Source of the DNA: Chloroflexota bacterium
Lineage (GTDB): Bacteria; Chloroflexota; Dehalococcoidia; SM23-28-2; RBG-16-64-32
Assembly (NCBI GenBank): GCA_016190405.1
Contig: JACPQO010000076.1
Coordinates: 1-6,465 of the forward strand
Direction: 5' to 3'
DNA: 6,465 nucleotides
This document shows positions 30-6,349 of this stretch, one piece after another. The notes beneath the pieces are model-generated. The model was not told where the DNA came from and made no database searches. It was given only the letters and a program-made list of their open reading frames with translations. The position numbers and the translations under genes are program-made. Position 1 is the stretch's first letter, and each line of letters begins with the position of its first letter.

Positions 30-887
30 ATGGTACTGACAGATCGTGATCGGGAGATCGTCCGCTGGGTCGCCGAGGTTGGCGTCGCCACTCGTGAGCA
101 TGTGCAGGCCATGTTCTTCGGGCCGGGCGGCAGGTCTCGCTGCCAGCATCGGCTTGCGCTGCTGTTCCAGCACCGGTACCTGGACCGCCTGCCCAGGCGG
201 GTTCCCAATGCGCATGACACGTACCACCTGTCGCGGAGGAGCGTGAACGGGCTGCGCCTCCTTCGCGCAACTGCAATCGGCGACCGCGTTCAGCCCGCGC
301 GAATCAGCCGTGCGCGCCTCCAGCACAGTCTAGATCTCGTGAGCTGCCGTGTGCACATCACATGCGCATGCGAAGAGGCCGGCTTCAAGCTCCTGGCTTG
401 GCTGAACACATACGAAGTCGTGCAAACGACTGCCGCCGCCGGGATTGTGCCCGATGCCTTCTTCCGGTTAGCGAGGCCGAATCGTGACGGCGAGGACAAG
501 AAGTCAGCGTTCTTTCTCGAAGTGGAACGCAGCGATAAGTCGGGCAGGGCCCTGATGGAGAAATTCCGGCGGTACGGGGAGTTCTACTACGGCGGCGCCT
601 TTGAGCAGAACTTCGGCACCCGCGCGCTGCGTGTCCTGGTGCTCATCGGTTCCGACTACGGCATCCTCCCGGAGCGCCGGGTCGAGAAGCTGACGGTCCT
701 CGCCGAGCAGACCAACGTCACGTTCCTGCACTTTGCCCCCCTGGCGGCGTTCCTTGGGACTCCGCCAAAGGGTGTTCTGACTGAGTCCATCTGGCGGCGG
801 CCGGGAGTAGAGGGCCGAGTGCCGCTGTTCTCCGTGCCTGACCTGCGTGTTGATCCCACTCGGAAGGTGAATTCGCATGGCAACTAG
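30..887 (+). CDS. Replic_Relax-family protein (replication-relaxation-like)
   Basis: The 285-aa product resembles the Replic_Relax family, which is found mostly on plasmids and integrative elements and whose biochemical role is poorly defined. Residues 1-80 fit the family's winged-helix DNA-binding domain: LTDRDREIVRWV (3-14), then TREHVQAMFFG and a C-Q-H-RLALLFQHRYLDRL stretch. The second half carries V-PD-AFFRL (140-146), FFLEVER (161-167, with E164 and E166) and K178. This spacing recalls a PD-(D/E)xK nuclease-like fold, which is my inference and not proof of cleavage. The ATG at 30 was chosen because the homology-like sequence begins right after it. The frame is open to the left edge, and the purine-rich AAGGAAGG at 5-12 is too far away to be a good ribosome site, so an earlier start is possible. 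The gene overlaps the following recombinase by 11 nt, which suggests translational coupling within one mobile-element operon. Confidence 0.75.
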   Translation: MVLTDRDREIVRWVAEVGVATREHVQAMFFGPGGRSRCQHRLALLFQHRYLDRLPRRVPNAHDTYHLSRRSVNGLRLLRATAIGDRVQPARISRARLQHSLDLVSCRVHITCACEEAGFKLLAWLNTYEVVQTTAAAGIVPDAFFRLARPNRDGEDKKSAFFLEVERSDKSGRALMEKFRRYGEFYYGGAFEQNFGTRALRVLVLIGSDYGILPERRVEKLTVLAEQTNVTFLHFAPLAAFLGTPPKGVLTESIWRRPGVEGRVPLFSVPDLRVDPTRKVNSHGN

Positions 888-1875
888 TTTGTTTCGTGTA
901 CGGTACGGAGGAGCGGTTGCGCGCCGACGTGCCTGCGCAGCGCAGCCTCTAGACCGTGTCATCCAGTCATACCTGCTCTGCTGCGAGACCGAAGGCATGA
1001 GCAAGGACACGGTGCGCTGGTATCGGCAGAAGCTCAGTTCGTTTCTCGATTTCCTAAACGACCGCGAGGATGAACCGACGCTGTCATCCCTGACTCCGGA
1101 GGTCGTTCGGGACTTTGTTGCCTTAGTGCAAACGGCTGGCCGGACCGCGTTCACGACCCGGGGATACATCCAAGTTCTGAAAGGGCTTGGCACCTGGCTC
1201 GCGGAGGAGGGCTACGTGGCAGTGAGCCCCCTTCAGAGACTACGGTTGCCGAAGGTCCCGAAGTACCTTGTGAAGCCGCTCTCCCACAGTGAGGTTGGTG
1301 CCCTTCTGAGTGCGATCAAGTCTCGCTCCGCCGCGGGTGCCCGGGATCTCGCGGTACTTCTCATGTTGCTCGACACTGGGATGCGTCTGGGCGAGATGGC
1401 ACGCTTGACGCTGCGAGATGCCGACGAGGCGATCAGAGATGGGGTGTTCAAGGTCATGGGGAAAGGCTCGCGCGAGCGCTATCTTCCTCTCGGAAAGGCA
1501 GCCCGGGATGCCTTGCGGAGGTACGTCCAGGTCTATCGGCCGGAGGTGCGGACCGATGCTCTATTCCTTGGCCGCGACCATCGGCCGCTCACGACAGAAG
1601 GATTCCGGCAGATCGTTCGCCGGGTGTCAAGTCGCGCTGGCGTTGGCGGGGTGCACCCACACAGGCTCAGGCACACGTTTGCCGTAAACTACTTGGTCAA
1701 CGGCGGCGACGCGATGTCACTCCAGCGCATTCTGGGCCACAGCACCCTGGAGATGGTCCGGAACTACGTCGCCCTGGATATGCGCGACATCAAGGCAAAG
1801 CATGTTGAGGCTTCTCCAGGTGATCGCTTCTGGGCTGAGAGAGCAGGGAGTCGAACATCGCATCAGCTCCGGTAG
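877..1875 (+). CDS. tyrosine recombinase / phage-type integrase (XerC/D-like)
   Basis: This 332-aa site-specific recombinase would cut and rejoin DNA through a covalent phosphotyrosine intermediate. Residues about 25-115 form the SAM-like core-binding domain (TVRWYRQKL, AFTTRGYIQVLKGL). Residues about 130-315 form the catalytic domain with a full set of active-site residues: R170 in TGMRLGE, K196 in GKGSRER, H262 and R265 in HPHRLRH, H288 in LGHST, and nucleophile Y297 in VRNYVAL. The ATG at 877 follows a GGAAGG ribosome site (862-867) and lies inside the end of the Replic_Relax gene, in another frame. It is about half identical by eye to the convergent recombinase at 1954-2907, and the two are separated by only 78 bp with no convincing terminator. 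The short N-terminal basic stretch (RVRY...ARRR) could help DNA binding. It probably belongs to an integrative element; XerC/D housekeeping function is unlikely given the context. Confidence 0.93.
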   Translation: MATSLFRVRYGGAVARRRACAAQPLDRVIQSYLLCCETEGMSKDTVRWYRQKLSSFLDFLNDREDEPTLSSLTPEVVRDFVALVQTAGRTAFTTRGYIQVLKGLGTWLAEEGYVAVSPLQRLRLPKVPKYLVKPLSHSEVGALLSAIKSRSAAGARDLAVLLMLLDTGMRLGEMARLTLRDADEAIRDGVFKVMGKGSRERYLPLGKAARDALRRYVQVYRPEVRTDALFLGRDHRPLTTEGFRQIVRRVSSRAGVGGVHPHRLRHTFAVNYLVNGGDAMSLQRILGHSTLEMVRNYVALDMRDIKAKHVEASPGDRFWAERAGSRTSHQLR

Positions 1876-1953: not shown

Positions 1954-2907
1954 TCAGGACGCATGACGTGCAATACGTGCGAGCCGGTCGGCAGGCGAAG
2001 CCCTCTGATGTACGGCCTTCACATCGGCGTCCGTCAGCATCACGTAGTTGCGCGTCATGCTGAGGGTGGAGTGGCCCAGGATCCGCTGCAGGGAGAAGAC
2101 GTCGCCGCCCGCGCGGAGGAAAGTGACGGCCGCTGTGTGGCGAAGGCGGTGGGGGTGCACGCCCCTAACGCCTGCGCGGTCGGCAAGACGTCTGATGACC
2201 TGGCGGATCCCCTCGGCTGTGAGCGCCTGGCCACTGAAACTCACGAAGAGCGCATCGCTGTGCATGGCACGGCGGTGGATCTGGATGTACCGACGGATAG
2301 CATTCTGAGTAGTCAGCCCTACCGGCACCATACGTTCGCGCGAGCCTTTACCGAAGACCCGGACGATCCCTTCGCGGACCGCCTGTAACCCGTCGTCTTC
2401 TGTCAGGGCCGCCAGCTCTCCCAGGCGCATGCCGGTATCCAGGAGCAGGAGGAAGATCGCGAAGTCCCGGGCTCCGGCCCGGGTTCTGGGGTCGATCTCG
2501 CTGAGGATCCGTCGCACCTCGTCCTCGTCCAGCGGCCTGACGACGTACTTCGGAGTCTTCGGCAGTTTGACCCGGCGCAGAGGATTGTCGGCGATGTAGC
2601 CCTCGTTTTCGAGCCAGGTGAAGAGGCCTTTCACCACCTGCACATAACCGCGTGTCGTGAACGCAGATACGCCGGTCGCCTGAAGGTGGACAACCAACCC
2701 GCGGACTATCTCGGGGGCGAGGTCTTCGGGGGCTAGCGGTAGTTGTCGCGCGCGAAGGTAGTCACAGAGCGCTCGCAGCTTCTGTTCGTACCAGCGGATG
2801 GTGTTGGGCGACTTCCCTTCAGCGCGACAGGTGAGCAGGTAGGACTCGATGAGGTTGGGGAGCTCCAGCCCCCTCCCCAGCGGCCGGAGCCGGCTTCGCA
2901 CAGCCAT
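1954..2907 (-). CDS. tyrosine recombinase / integrase next to tRNA-Trp
   Basis: This 317-aa tyrosine recombinase has an N-terminal core-binding domain (about 17-107, TIRWYEQKL, AFTTRGYVQVVKGLFTWLE) and a catalytic domain with all expected residues: R161, K187, H253 and R256 of HPHRLRH, H279 of LGHST, and nucleophile Y288 in TRNYVML. The start at 2907 is preceded by GAGAGGA at a short spacing. It is a close relative of the recombinase at 877-1875, sharing the same motifs and end (ASP-DR). Its 5' end is about 80 bp from the 3' end of tRNA-Trp, and both are on the minus strand. This matches the common layout in which an integrase sits just inside the junction of an element integrated at a tRNA 3' end. 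Two copies of a 9-bp direct repeat lie between gene and tRNA and could be accessory binding sites. Confidence 0.93.
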   Translation of the reverse strand: MAVRSRLRPLGRGLELPNLIESYLLTCRAEGKSPNTIRWYEQKLRALCDYLRARQLPLAPEDLAPEIVRGLVVHLQATGVSAFTTRGYVQVVKGLFTWLENEGYIADNPLRRVKLPKTPKYVVRPLDEDEVRRILSEIDPRTRAGARDFAIFLLLLDTGMRLGELAALTEDDGLQAVREGIVRVFGKGSRERMVPVGLTTQNAIRRYIQIHRRAMHSDALFVSFSGQALTAEGIRQVIRRLADRAGVRGVHPHRLRHTAAVTFLRAGGDVFSLQRILGHSTLSMTRNYVMLTDADVKAVHQRASPADRLARIARHAS

Positions 2908-2988: not shown

Positions 2989-3064
<76 letters not shown>

Positions 3065-3107
3065 GCGGTTTAGGAGGGCCACTCCCGCCTCAGGCGGGTA
3101 CGCCCCT
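3065..3107 (-). repeat. tRNA-Trp 5'-half-like repeat unit A (proximal)
   Basis: This 43-nt unit abuts the tRNA 5' end. It starts with the same nine bases as the tRNA (AGGGGCGTA) and ends in the same CTAAACCGC-type anticodon-arm sequence (the tRNA has CAAAACCGC), with an equal overall length. In place of the D-arm it has the hairpin CCCGCC-TGA-GGCGGG (read on the minus strand). It may be a degenerate copy of the tRNA 5' half or a dispersed repeat that happens to join the tRNA start. Confidence 0.75.
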
Positions 3108-3153
3108 GCGGTTTAGGGGGGCCACTGCCCGACAACGTCGGGGTACGCCCCCC
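3108..3153 (-). repeat. tRNA-Trp 5'-half-like repeat unit B (distal)
   Basis: This second tandem copy has the order GGGGGCGTA, a hairpin with stem CCCGAC/GTCGGG, AGTGGCC and CTAAACCGC. Relative to unit A the inner stem carries a paired change (C-G to A-T) and the outer GGGGGGC/GCCCCCC stem is fully paired, so the fold rather than the primary sequence appears to be maintained. A further CGCAGG (minus strand, 3155-3160) precedes it, like the junction before unit A and the tRNA. Confidence 0.75.
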
Positions 3154-3163
3154 ACCTGCGTCC

Positions 3164-3194
3164 AGTATATCAAGGAGAGGCGGCAGCGGGTCAA
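3164..3194 (-). promoter_or_regulatory. putative sigma70-type promoter for tRNA-Trp and its leader repeats
   Basis: On the minus strand TTGACC (3189-3194) and TATACT (3164-3169) each match the consensus at 5 of 6 bases. The spacer is 19 bp, longer than ideal. GATATA, two bases upstream, would give 17 bp. Transcription would start near 3157, just before the two repeat units, so these would be in the pre-tRNA leader. The -35 overlaps the stop codon of the phosphodiesterase gene upstream. Confidence 0.5.
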
Positions 3195-3901
3195 GGATGG
3201 GGCTGGCGGTCCAGCAGGGCCAGCGCCCGGTCCGGAAAGTTCGTCACTATGCCGTCCACGCCCAGGTCGATGAGGCGCTGGATGTCCGCCTCGGCGTCGG
3301 CGGTCCAGGCATAGAGGGTGAGGGCGCTGCGCCGCGCCTGGCCCGCGATCTCTTCCGTGATTCCCGGGTAAAAGACGCTGACCGCCTGAAGGCCCATTCG
3401 CAGCGCGGCCTCGCGCATCTGGGGCCAGGAGGGGAGCGCCTGGGGGGCGATGAGGAGACCGGCGGGCAAGAGGGGCTCGGCCTGGCGCATGGTGGCCAGG
3501 GCCTGGGCGAAGAACGACCACACCATGACGTCGCCCAGAGCGCCGGCCTCTCGCACGACGGCGGCCACCTGCTCCTCGATACCCGGCTGCTTGATCTCGA
3601 CGACGAGCAGGGCGTTACCCTTGGTGAGGGCCAGGACCTCGGCGAGGGTCGGGACGCGCTCACCGCCGCCCGCGTCCAGGGCGCGCAGCTGGTCCAGGGT
3701 GAGCTGGGCCACGGGTCCCCTGCCGCCGGTGGTGCGGTCGACGGTGAGGTCGTGCATAAGGACGGGCACGCCGTCGGCGCTGGCCTGGACGTCGATCTCG
3801 ATGGCGCCGGCGCCGAGGCGGAGGGCCGCGCGGATACCGGCCAGGGTGTTCTCCGGGGCGTGGCCGGCGCAGGCGGCGTGGGAGATGACGATGGGGTGCA
3901 C
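3191..3901 (-). CDS. glycerophosphodiester phosphodiesterase (GDPD/UgpQ-like)
   Basis: The 236-aa product matches the GDPD TIM-barrel family, which hydrolyses glycerophosphodiesters to glycerol-3-phosphate and an alcohol in a metal-dependent way. Visible motifs are ISHAACAGHAPENT (6-19), IEIDV (E35, D37), DGVPVLMHD (H50), VEIKQ (E102, K104) and VDGIVTNFPD (215-224). The usual HR pair at the start is H8-A9 here, so the conserved Arg is missing while H8, E17, E35, D37 and H50 remain. No signal peptide is visible, so a cytoplasmic UgpQ-like role is likely. I chose the GTG at 3901 because family homology starts there, the length then matches the family, and a perfect TATAAT ends 6 nt upstream. 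Reading upstream to 4093 in frame only runs through palindromic repeats. No operon partner is evident; tRNA-Trp follows on the same strand. Confidence 0.88.
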   Translation of the reverse strand: MHPIVISHAACAGHAPENTLAGIRAALRLGAGAIEIDVQASADGVPVLMHDLTVDRTTGGRGPVAQLTLDQLRALDAGGGERVPTLAEVLALTKGNALLVVEIKQPGIEEQVAAVVREAGALGDVMVWSFFAQALATMRQAEPLLPAGLLIAPQALPSWPQMREAALRMGLQAVSVFYPGITEEIAGQARRSALTLYAWTADAEADIQRLIDLGVDGIVTNFPDRALALLDRQPHP

Positions 3902-3937
3902 GCTGCGATTATACAGGCTGGCTGCGGATGGGCTGAA
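3902..3937 (-). promoter_or_regulatory. promoter for a leaderless phosphodiesterase mRNA
   Basis: On the minus strand a perfect TATAAT lies at 3908-3913, followed by CGCAGC and then GTG. A start site seven bases after the -10 box would fall on the first base of the GTG, leaving no 5' UTR. No ribosome-binding sequence precedes the GTG, which agrees with leaderless initiation. The -35 is weak (TTCAGC, 3932-3937, 18 bp away). Confidence 0.6.
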
Positions 3938-4011: not shown

Positions 4012-4038
4012 TCGCAACAGAATTGCAGGGCCGGTCTA

Positions 4039-4061
4039 CGTCCTTCGACAGGCTCAGGACG
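4039..4061. repeat. palindromic intergenic repeat, copy 2
   Basis: Stem CGTCCT/AGGACG encloses loop TCGACAGGCTC. It is in the same orientation as copy 1, about 50 bp away, so the two form a short cluster. Confidence 0.8.
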
Positions 4062-4140
4062 AACGGATCGTCGCGCCTACTCGGGCGCCACACGCCACGA
4101 ATTGCGTAATGACCATAAGCCTGGCCCTCGGGGATAGTGC

Positions 4141-4189: not shown

Positions 4190-4795
4190 CTAGATCGGCT
4201 CGCTGCTGGCCGCGAAGATGGTGATCATATCGCGGCGCCTGGCGGCCACCTCGATGGCCAGGTCGCGGGCGTTCAGGGCCAGCTCGAAGCGCAGGGGCGA
4301 GTTGGCGTAGCCGCTCTTGAAGTTGATCTGGCGCGCGATGCGATGCAGATCCTGGGCCATGAAGCGGATACGGACCCGCCAGTCGATGGTGGGGTCGCAG
4401 ACGGGCGGGATGCGGCGGTCCAGGCAGAAGAACTCGCAGGCGCGCTCCAGGTCGGACTCCAGGCGGGCGGCGACCATGCGGTGGACGGCGCGCACCATCT
4501 CCCAGTCGTCCTCGCCGTCGCCCAGGAAGGGGAGCACGCGACCGATGCGGGTGCGCAGGGTGTCGTCGCCTTGCTGCTGGGCGTCTAGCTCCAGGTTAAG
4601 GCGGCGTTGCTGGGCCAGGTAGAGGCTGAGGATGTACGTCTCGTCCTCCAGGAGGGCCAGCCCCCTGGGCAGGACATCGACGACCGACTGGGCCCAGCCG
4701 CGGACGCGGCGGTCCAGCTCGTCGACTTTGCGCTGGACGCGGCGCAGGGCGCGTTCGTCTTGCGGTATGTACAGCTCTTGGTGCTGGTCGAGCAA
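4190..4795 (-). CDS. hypothetical helical protein, 201 aa
   Basis: I do not recognise this family. The start is a TTG at 4795, nine bases after a strong AAGGAG (4805-4810); the next in-frame Met is about 100 residues in, so TTG is well supported. The protein looks largely alpha-helical and rich in Arg, Asp, Glu and Gln. Residues 13-60 (ERALRRVQRKVDELDRR onward) suggest an N-terminal amphipathic or coiled-coil helix. Three cysteines (C120, C124, C133) fall in ACEFFCLDRRIPPVC and could bind a metal or form a disulfide, which is speculative. No signal peptide or membrane segment is seen. It is divergent from the selenoprotein candidate across a 170-bp gap, so shared regulation is possible. Confidence 0.75.
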   Translation of the reverse strand: MLDQHQELYIPQDERALRRVQRKVDELDRRVRGWAQSVVDVLPRGLALLEDETYILSLYLAQQRRLNLELDAQQQGDDTLRTRIGRVLPFLGDGEDDWEMVRAVHRMVAARLESDLERACEFFCLDRRIPPVCDPTIDWRVRIRFMAQDLHRIARQINFKSGYANSPLRFELALNARDLAIEVAARRRDMITIFAASSEPI

Positions 4796-4935: not shown

Positions 4936-4960
4936 TAGAATGGGGCGAGTAACTGGAGGT
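4936..4960 (+). promoter_or_regulatory. -10 box and ribosome site for the selenoprotein candidate
   Basis: TAGAAT (4936-4941) matches the -10 consensus at 5 of 6 bases; no clear -35 is seen. GGAGG (4955-4959) stands six bases before the ATG at 4966 and fixes that start. In the same divergent gap, CTGGTC (4813-4818) and GACCAG (4835-4840) form a short inverted repeat near the start of the opposite gene, possibly an operator. Confidence 0.55.
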
Positions 4961-4965
4961 GCCGC

Positions 4966-5832
4966 ATGGCCATAGACAGCTTCAAGTTCCTGCCGGGCTC
5001 CATCGCCAACTACTATCGGAACCTACCGGTACAACGGGAGGAGCCGGTCCCCTGGACGCCCCTGAAGAAGCCGCTATCGGAGTGCCGGTTCGCGCTGGTG
5101 ACGACGGCGGGGATATCGGTGGAGGGGCTCGAGCCGCCTTTCGACGCCGAACGGGAGAAGCGGGAGCCGATGTGGGGCGACCCGACCTACCGGCGGGTCC
5201 CGCGCGACGTGAGACAGGAGCAGGTCCGCTGCTCCCATCTCCACATCAGCAACCGGGACATCCTGGCCGACGTGAACATCGCGCTGCCGGTGCGGCGATT
5301 CCTGGAGCTGGAGTCGGAGGGGGTCATCGGTTCCCTGGCGCCCACGAGCTACTCGTTCATGGGCTACCAGATGAACACCGGCGAGTGGCGGGACCGCTAC
5401 GCCCCCGAGGTGGCCGCACTGATGAAGCAGGAGGCCGTGGACGCGGCGCTGCTGACCCCCGCCTGACCGGACTGCTGCCGGAGCGTGCCCGTGCTGGCGC
5501 GCAGTATCGAGGCGGCGGGGATCAGCACCGTGGTGGTGACGATGATGCCCTACTGGTCGGAGCGCATCGGCGTGCCGCGAACAGTGGGGGTAGCGTTCCC
5601 CTACGGCCACCCGTTAGGGCGGCCGGGCGACCGCGAGACGCAGACGGCCATTGTCCGGGCGGCGCTGGCGCTCCTGGAAGAGGCGCAGGCGCCGGGAGAA
5701 ATCCGGGAGCTGGACATGGAGTGGCCGCAGGAGCTATCGGAGGCGAAGAAGGACTGGCAGCCGCTGGAGCCCTCGCCGATTATCAAGATGATGTTGGAGC
5801 AGGCGCGGCAGAGGCGGGAGGGGGCGGGGTAG
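4966..5832 (+). CDS. putative selenoprotein of the GrdB/PrdB-like reductase family (in-frame TGA as Sec167)
   Basis: Two open stretches (4966-5463 and 5467-5832) lie in the same frame and are separated only by a TGA at 5464-5466. Joined, they give 288 aa resembling the selenoprotein B family of glycine/betaine/sarcosine/D-proline reductases. Visible family-like segments are ALVTTAGISVEGLEPPFD (43-60), GDPTYRRVP (71-79), SHLHISNRD (90-98), SFMGYQ (130-135), DAALLTPA (159-166) and FPYGHPLGRPGD (211-222). The TGA falls exactly where family members have Sec or Cys before PxC, giving U167-P-D-C170-C171, a UxxC redox motif. In the anaerobic reductases Sec attacks the substrate's C-N bond; many shorter relatives, such as this one, have no known substrate. 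The ATG has a good GGAGG. It could instead be a Cys-to-stop pseudogene or a sequencing error, but codon-level conservation after the TGA argues for an intact product. No sel genes are in the window. Confidence 0.8.
5464..5498 (+). promoter_or_regulatory. candidate bacterial SECIS element (UGA plus hairpin)
   Basis: Downstream of the UGA, GCCGGAGC (5477-5484) pairs with GTGCTGGC (5491-5498) around the loop GTGCCC. The pairing includes two G-U pairs and one A-G mismatch. The loop starts 18 nt after the UGA and begins with G, consistent with the general layout of bacterial SECIS elements. A competing fold, CCGG/CCGG at 5467-5481, is shorter. In GC-rich DNA such stems occur by chance, so this is only supporting evidence. 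Confidence 0.45.
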
Positions 5833-5877: not shown

Positions 5878-5904
5878 CGCCTGGCGACGTTGTGGTCTCG
5901 CTCA

Positions 5905-5923
5905 TGGTTCGACAGGCTCACCA
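5905..5923. repeat. palindromic intergenic repeat, copy 3
   Basis: Stem TGGT/ACCA encloses loop TCGACAGGCTC. The flanks CTCA (left) and CGAACGG (right) resemble those of other copies. Confidence 0.75.
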
Positions 5924-5980
5924 CGAACGGAGAGGTGCGCCGTGTGAAGGCGGATGCTATGGAGGGTCTGGTCCCGTCCC

Positions 5981-6029: not shown

Positions 6030-6326
6030 ATGAGCTTCTTGGTGTACATGCTCCGATGCGCGGACGGCTCCATCTATACAGGACATACGGATGATCTGGA
6101 GGCGCGGCTGGCAGCACACCGGCTGCGCGTCTATTGTGGCTATACCTCCACGCGACTGCCGGTGCGCCTGATCTTCCACGAGCAGTTTCCAACACGAGAC
6201 GAGGCTTTTGCCGCCGAACGACGGATCAAGCGGTGGTCCCGAGCAAAGAAGTTGGCACTTGCCAGAGGGGACTGGCGGGAGCTTCGGAGGTTATCATCCG
6301 CTCATGGTTCGACAGGCTCACCATGA
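6030..6326 (+). CDS. small GIY-YIG nuclease-domain protein (UPF0213/COG2827-like)
   Basis: The 98-aa product is a stand-alone GIY-YIG domain. VYM (5-7) and YTG (16-18) stand for the GIY and YIG motifs, followed by R26 in DLEARLAAH. E63 lies in AERRIKRWS (62-70) and is the expected metal-binding Glu. Members are thought to act on DNA, but the function of these single-domain proteins is largely unknown. The ATG at 6030 follows AAGG (6016-6019). The real domain ends near residue 89; the tail AHGSTGSP and the stop codon are encoded by palindromic repeat copy 5, which seems to have replaced the original 3' end. Its upstream region is also repeat sequence (copy 4), so the gene is bracketed by two copies. 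Confidence 0.85.
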   Translation: MSFLVYMLRCADGSIYTGHTDDLEARLAAHRLRVYCGYTSTRLPVRLIFHEQFPTRDEAFAAERRIKRWSRAKKLALARGDWRELRRLSSAHGSTGSP

Positions 6327-6330
6327 GCGG
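6298..6330. repeat. palindromic intergenic repeat, copy 5 (within the gene's 3' end)
   Basis: A perfect 11-bp stem, CCGCTCATGGT/ACCATGAGCGG, encloses loop TCGACAGGCTC. The TGA stop of the GIY-YIG gene (6324-6326) is inside the right arm. The hairpin could protect the mRNA 3' end or slow transcription. Confidence 0.85.
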
Positions 6331-6349
6331 AAGGAGGTCGGATCTTTGC

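Follow-up and report, generated by a model that had tools for sequence, protein, structure and literature searches.

Cleavage of the D-proline ring is a fermentation best known in anaerobic clostridia. In the available text of the Sargasso Sea survey this reaction is used to explain PrdB, of which 42 Sec-containing genes with a UxxC motif were counted (PMC1088965), and the available text of the GOS survey gives 235 Sec and 110 Cys genes of PrdB from 38 samples (PMC2398784). 'Proline reductase' accounts for 6.4% of selenoprotein genes in the accessible part of another study (PMC9402790), and the marine surveys, as excerpted, place 'PrdB' or 'proline reductase' among the commonest selenoprotein families (PMC2398784, PMC9402790). 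Dehalococcoidia with glycine reductases are also reported, according to the accessible part of the source (PMC9751293). In the portions available of the open-licence literature searched, no description was found of a PrdB-like selenoprotein without PrdA, and the same literature gave no paper on selenoproteins of the Chloroflexi/SAR202.

The gene analysed here lies at 4966..5832 (+ strand) in a 6,465-nucleotide stretch of a Chloroflexota contig, referred to as the window. Its product is best understood as a UxxC selenol oxidoreductase that stands alone, of a kind whose database entries are commonly labelled proline reductase and truncated. Sec-containing UxxC 'PrdB' has been known since the sea surveys of 2005 and 2008, and the finding is not new as a kind. 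The initial annotation had suggested that a lineage with the UPDCC motif may be undescribed; this is not supported, because UxxC PrdB selenoproteins appear already in the available parts of the Sargasso Sea and GOS surveys and the UPDC/UPEC/UPAC motif is found in 45 of the 81 sequences compared.

Reading frame and homology across the in-frame TGA

The gene begins with an ATG at 4966, 6 nt downstream of a GGAGG (4955..4959, +) that was read directly in the sequence and is the probable ribosome-binding site. Codon 167 is a TGA (5464..5466, +), after which the frame continues for 121 codons to a TAG at 5830-5832. The frame had been described as open from 4966 to 5832 apart from this TGA, flanked by ALVTTAG and FPYGHPLGRPGD and with the motif UPDCC, all of which is seen in the sequence and its translation. 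Translation with U at the TGA gives 288 residues, of which 167-171 read UPDCC. Standard ORF calling, as had been foreseen, splits the gene into ORFs of 166 and 115 aa. The latter (5485..5832, +) would be an artefact of halting at the TGA and no gene of its own; its apparent GTG start is Val174, and in the window's motif group (see below) 39 of the 40 sequences with Val at that position have this codon.

Each half matches the PrdB model TIGR04483 by itself, the left at 2.9e-27 over profile positions 18-145 and the right at 5.2e-12 over 157-235, so that the second match takes up the profile after the first; the joined product matches at 1e-48. Homology is thus not confined to one half, and the proposal of one 288-aa selenoprotein is borne out by the matches to both halves and to the joined chain, together with the conservation of the TGA described below. 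In the suggested alignment to PF07355 and GrdB, Sec167 aligns with the Sec of GrdB (hhalign probability 97.6 with the GrdB of locus L094); PF07355 covers the left half only, with residues 15-164 on positions 201-345 of the 347-position profile. PF07355 was found in 40 of the 41 sequences of the structure and conservation alignment, in which 35 of the 80 loci introduced below are included.

The homologue database search gave 1,203 matches, and the following figures refer to the best 120 of these. As many as 113 stop exactly at residue 166, one before the Sec position, and the TGA would be the endpoint of those entries; as a result of truncation at the Sec codon, most of the nearest database entries cover half of the protein and miss its active site. 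Sec or Cys had been expected at residue 167, and this is what is found, as TGA in relatives and as Cys in three full-length homologues listed (P0002, P0008 and P0092). Two further full-length homologues (P0004 and P0006) have Asp in place of Sec, reading VDANCC against AUPDCC in the window. P0038 has Leu at 167 and a tail that looks frame-shifted, and P0055 is without this stretch.

In GTDB species genomes 88 loci were confirmed by a scan, and 80 of them were compared. The tblastn match crosses the TGA in frame in all 80 (that of L018 ends after residue 190, at the contig end), the codon at residue 167 is TGA in every one, and a Cys follows three residues on in all of them. Thirty-two of the 80 loci are titled Chloroflexota, including the 21 closest, with a best identity of 76%; the others bear titles such as Acidimicrobiales, Deltaproteobacteria, Syntrophaceae, Desulfobacterales, Alphaproteobacteria, Nitrospinota and similar groups. 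The motif pattern fitted 63 of the 80 rows. The remaining 17 fall outside it because the second Cys is there Ala, Ser, Asn or Met, and inspection of these rows by eye placed the TGA at the same position; Cys171, the residue next after Cys170, is not conserved across the 80 loci. In the 41-sequence alignment the invariant residues are D60, R63, E64, W70, D72, R76, H91, H93, D102, C170, E182, R205 and W253.

The AlphaFold2 model, made from the 41 sequences with Cys in place of Sec, is a single chain with a pLDDT of 95.3 and a pTM of 0.93. Residue 167 is located between the strand 160-164 and the helix 168-183, with Cys170 (codon 5473..5475, +) in the first turn of the helix. The first turn of a helix is a usual place for a redox-active CxxC. 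Selenol redox chemistry at the UxxC is somewhat favoured. The most likely target of an attack by Sec167 would be a small activated organic or disulfide-like molecule; Cys170, its expected resolving partner, would resolve the product as a Sec167-Cys170 selenenyl-sulfide, and a dithiol donor of the thioredoxin type may re-reduce this bond. None of the fold matches of the model names a substrate. The protein is small, single-chain and confidently modelled, and its activity is therefore directly testable.

Selenocysteine machinery and a candidate SECIS hairpin

Genes for selenocysteine synthesis and insertion were sought, using curated cut-offs, in 17 close genomes (those of L001-L016 and L018). 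tRNA-Sec is over the cut-off in 16 of the 17 (best scores 69-82 bits) and has the anticodon TCA in both candidates checked; a second class of tRNA scores near 50 bits probably represents other long-armed tRNAs. selA is over the cut-off in 13 genomes, selB in 11 and selD in 15. All four genes are found in 8/17, including the single-contig chromosome of L016, and at least two in every genome, the genes missing from the remaining relatives being assumed to reflect incomplete drafts. The cut-offs are not perfectly clean, as among 14 control genomes tRNA-Sec passed in 5, selB in 2, selA in 1 and selD in 2. The SelD gene itself has one in-frame TGA in 13 of the 17 genomes (G001-G017), which is a second sign of selenoprotein synthesis in these lineages.

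According to the accessible part of its source, the bSECIS model has a loop of 3-9 nt, a stem of 4-16 bp, a G in the first two loop places, a distance of 16-37 nt from UGA to loop and an energy of at most -7.5 (PMC13188914). The candidate hairpin in the window (5483..5502, +) consists of a 7-bp stem (5483-5489/5496-5502) and a 6-nt loop (5490-5495, CGUGCU) with G at the second loop place, 23 nt separating the UGA from the loop. Folded alone (-11.8 kcal/mol) it lies within every limit given in that part of the source, whereas a 47-nt fold of the window favours a different, longer stem (z -1.83). SelB bound to this hairpin would deliver Sec-tRNA(Sec) to the UGA at 5464-5466, and it is because of this delivery that the UGA would be read as Sec.

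Hairpins and codons were compared in two groups, one of 45 sequences with UPDC, UPEC or UPAC, including the window, and one of 28 with UPLC, UPFC or UPYC; L073-L080, with Met at +4, were excluded. In the first group the hairpin, with a 7-bp stem and a 6-nt loop, has its start 19 nt beyond the first base of the TGA. No placement among the 10,800 tested is better paired than its inner 6 bp, which pair fully in 40/45 sequences; all 7 bp are paired in 22/45, and the loop opens with CGU in 43/45. The second group has another hairpin, at +14, with a stem of 7 bp and a loop of 3 nt; it is fully paired in 25/28 and is likewise the best of 10,800 placements, at a different offset from that of the first group. 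In the codon test, the baseline for each amino acid was taken from the same genes, using 60 codons on each side of the TGA. Constraint is strongest in the 8-codon window beginning at +3 in the first group (of 113 windows) and at +2 in the second (of 104). In the first group Pro at +8 is CCC in 41/41 and Val at +9 is GTG in 43/43, and the codons of the 3' arm (+11 and +12) are barely above baseline conservation; in the second group Ser is TCC in 28/28.

Pairing was counted in 42 distinct rows against 500 shuffles, with slid stems as a control; the 44-row alignment was made without L027, which is the same stretch as L026. Of all cells, 92.2% are paired, a value reached by 4 of the 500 shuffles, and the slid versions give 13.6-57.1%. 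Two-sided changes occur in three pairs (8 cells), a number of pairs that 38 of the 500 shuffles match, and the stem slid by +2 also has three such pairs, with 10 cells against 8. Eighteen of the 42 rows leave the outermost pair open, and further pair types show no excess over the shuffles in these rows. Covariation as such is weak in this stem. Single-sequence folding is weak as well: the 40-nt fold of the window holds the hairpin with a z of -1.37, and three of eight relatives fold no better than shuffles. The case for the SECIS consequently lies in its placement and in the codon constraint rather than in covariation.

Insertion of Sec at the UGA is, judged from the sequences, almost certain, and very probably the gene encodes a single selenoprotein, a stand-alone relative of PrdB and GrdB, whose UGA is read as Sec by way of the SECIS; a UxxC redox function is assigned to it with less confidence. 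Other accounts of the TGA fare poorly. An error or a pseudogene at 5464-5466 might be suspected from a single window, but a TGA kept in 80/80 loci across several phyla, with constrained codons around it, is no sequencing error, and conservation refutes this account, which retains a negligible probability. It is just as hard to credit a changed genetic code, in which TGA would stand for another amino acid such as Trp. Such a code would leave the frame open, as does any reading of the TGA as a residue, yet the recombinase at 1954-2907 (-) in the same window terminates with TGA, the tRNA-Trp of the window has the anticodon CCA, three full-length relatives have Cys and not Trp at residue 167, and the relatives have tRNA-Sec genes and a SECIS-like hairpin. 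UGA decoding competes with release factors in general, and the TGA could on that ground be partly a real stop, giving a regulated 166-aa form with the full length made only when selenium is present. This is very unlikely, however, given that the 113 of 120 closest entries with the 166-aa form reflect gene calling and not protein evidence, that the part after the TGA is conserved, holds the invariant Cys170 and forms a single chain with the rest in the model, and that nothing points to a role for the short form.

Family scores, partner subunits and neighbouring genes

With the TGA taken as Sec, the protein might be a true D-proline reductase subunit (PrdB), or a subunit of a glycine, sarcosine or betaine reductase, acting with a pyruvoyl partner. 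In keeping with this, the best curated family is TIGR04483 (PrdB), Sec in UxxC, by which PrdB is recognised, is present as UPDC, the Sec aligns with that of GrdB, and a PF09338 protein occurs in 5 of the 65 host genomes searched. Against it, the TIGR04483 score of 165.9 bits is below the curated equivalog cut-off of 300, as are all 19 matches to this model in the 17 close genomes (105.6-168.4 bits), each with one TGA inside. The gathering threshold of PF07355 (22 bits) is passed at 41.7, over profile positions 201-345 only, and the cut-off of TIGR01918 (65.45 bits) is missed at 49.3, with the match starting at position 203 of 431. The earlier description as 'GrdB/PrdB-like' is therefore sound as regards the matches to TIGR04483 and PF07355, but by curated cut-offs the protein is neither PrdB nor GrdB proper. 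The partner subunits PrdA and GrdE are relatives within PF09338, and the distribution of this family also counts against a proline or glycine reductase. As the initial annotation had stated, no reductase partner is nearby: none was found in the window with Pfam and NCBIfam, nor among the annotated recurrent neighbours. The search for PF09338 covered the genomes of 65 of the 80 loci; the family is present in 0/17 close, 3/10 more distant and 2/38 other genomes and was not found in 60 of the 65, mostly drafts, in which absence is weaker evidence than in closed genomes. The positive genomes indicate that the search works, and the control genomes of the 17-genome search gave no match. In the two of the five positive genomes that were examined (G027 and G029) the PF09338 gene adjoins a separate full-length GrdB. 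With no pyruvoyl partner of the PrdA/GrdE type found in most of the host genomes searched, the protein is probably no D-proline or glycine reductase. For D-proline reductase in particular there is good confidence in this negative, and the chance of a true subunit of either kind is put as low.

Full-length GrdB genes were also found at L094:1231-2547 (-) and L095:1423-2808 (+), each with an in-frame TGA in the motif UGTGTRSG, so that no Cys lies three residues after Sec. Both adjoin a GrdE-like gene, and in L094 there is in addition a CoA-transferase-A-like gene. The GrdE-type protein of L094 matches the PrdA model as well.

Conserved neighbours were considered as a clue to function and set aside: among the 2,434 ORFs of at least 80 aa within 6.5 kb of the 80 loci and in the window, clusters are lineage-local only, and with Pfam run on ten cluster representatives only, no operon names a substrate. 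In close Chloroflexota relatives the neighbour is a divergent 201-aa ORF without a Pfam or NCBIfam match (4190..4795, - in the window), all nine members of whose cluster (8 loci and the window) lie less than 300 nt away on the opposite strand. The second neighbour is a glycerophosphodiester phosphodiesterase (3191..3937, -; PF03009, 4.1e-40), whose start is provisional, the longest ORF extending to 4093; its cluster has 10 sources, including the window. A glycosidase gene lies downstream in a few close Chloroflexota, and genes for AMP-binding proteins, enoyl-CoA hydratases and short-chain dehydrogenases are scattered among the neighbours elsewhere. At L073-L080 a cluster assigned from its L078 representative to MDMPI_N/SCP2 (mycothiol maleylpyruvate isomerase type) is located on the same strand directly before the PrdB-like gene in 8/8 loci, 21-41 nt upstream of the match, and its product is a possible functional partner in these loci.

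The window also contains two convergent tyrosine recombinases, at 877-1875 (+) and 1954-2907 (-), with 55% identity over 294 residues. The second starts about 80 nt from the 3' end of a tRNA-Trp gene (2989-3064, -), and a Replic_Relax protein is encoded at 30-887; together these look like one end of an element integrated at a tRNA gene. A 31-nt direct repeat (3056-3086 and 3099-3129, 94%) overlaps the 5' end of the tRNA-Trp gene with its first copy. A dispersed 33-nt repeat with the core TTCGACAGGCTCA is found around the PrdB-like gene at 4035-4067, 5899-5931 and 6299-6331, the copies being 73% and 94% identical to the reference, and a GIY-YIG ORF (6030-6326) ends within the last of them.

Comparison with known systems

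The protein would stand alone and be related both to PrdB and to the C-terminal half of GrdB. It shares with PrdB (TIGR04483) the same domain over most of its length and Sec in UxxC, and differs in scoring 166 bits against 300, in being 50 residues longer than the 238-position model and in that 60 of the 65 host genomes searched gave no match to the PF09338 partner family. With GrdB, GrdF and GrdH (PF07355, TIGR01918) it has in common the matched C-terminal half and the aligned Sec; unlike these proteins it is without the N-terminal half (profile before position 201), stands alone and reaches 49.3 against 65.45 bits for TIGR01918.

The 'PrdB' of the Sargasso Sea and GOS surveys (PMC1088965, PMC2398784), as described in the available parts of both, is likewise of PrdB type with UxxC, has more Sec than Cys members and is abundant in environmental data, and is listed there, unlike here, under proline reductase. 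Likened by these descriptions, it probably includes the present family, and for this branch the label 'proline reductase' is probably a misfit. If the genes do work without PrdA, as 60 of 65 genomes suggest, the proline reductase interpretation fails for this branch, which leaves a widespread redox enzyme without an assigned function. We lean, by a small degree, towards regarding the abundant environmental 'proline reductase PrdB', at least where its hosts are the Chloroflexota, Acidimicrobiia and Deltaproteobacteria compared here, as a separate orphan selenoenzyme family with no pyruvoyl partner and a substrate other than proline. Each of its two main branches would have a SECIS hairpin of its own after the same codon, and of the 120 closest database entries 113 are cut at the Sec codon.

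In the available part of its description, the farACEB operon (PMC10838667) resembles the present case in that a GrdB-like selenoprotein is proposed for a non-amino-acid substrate, as part of a fluoroacetate reductase operon; it differs in that farB adjoins farE, the second component of a B complex of the glycine reductase type, and no such neighbour is found here. The excerpt suggests that GrdB-like selenoproteins are able to act on substrates other than amino acids, and thus that the fold may tolerate other leaving groups.
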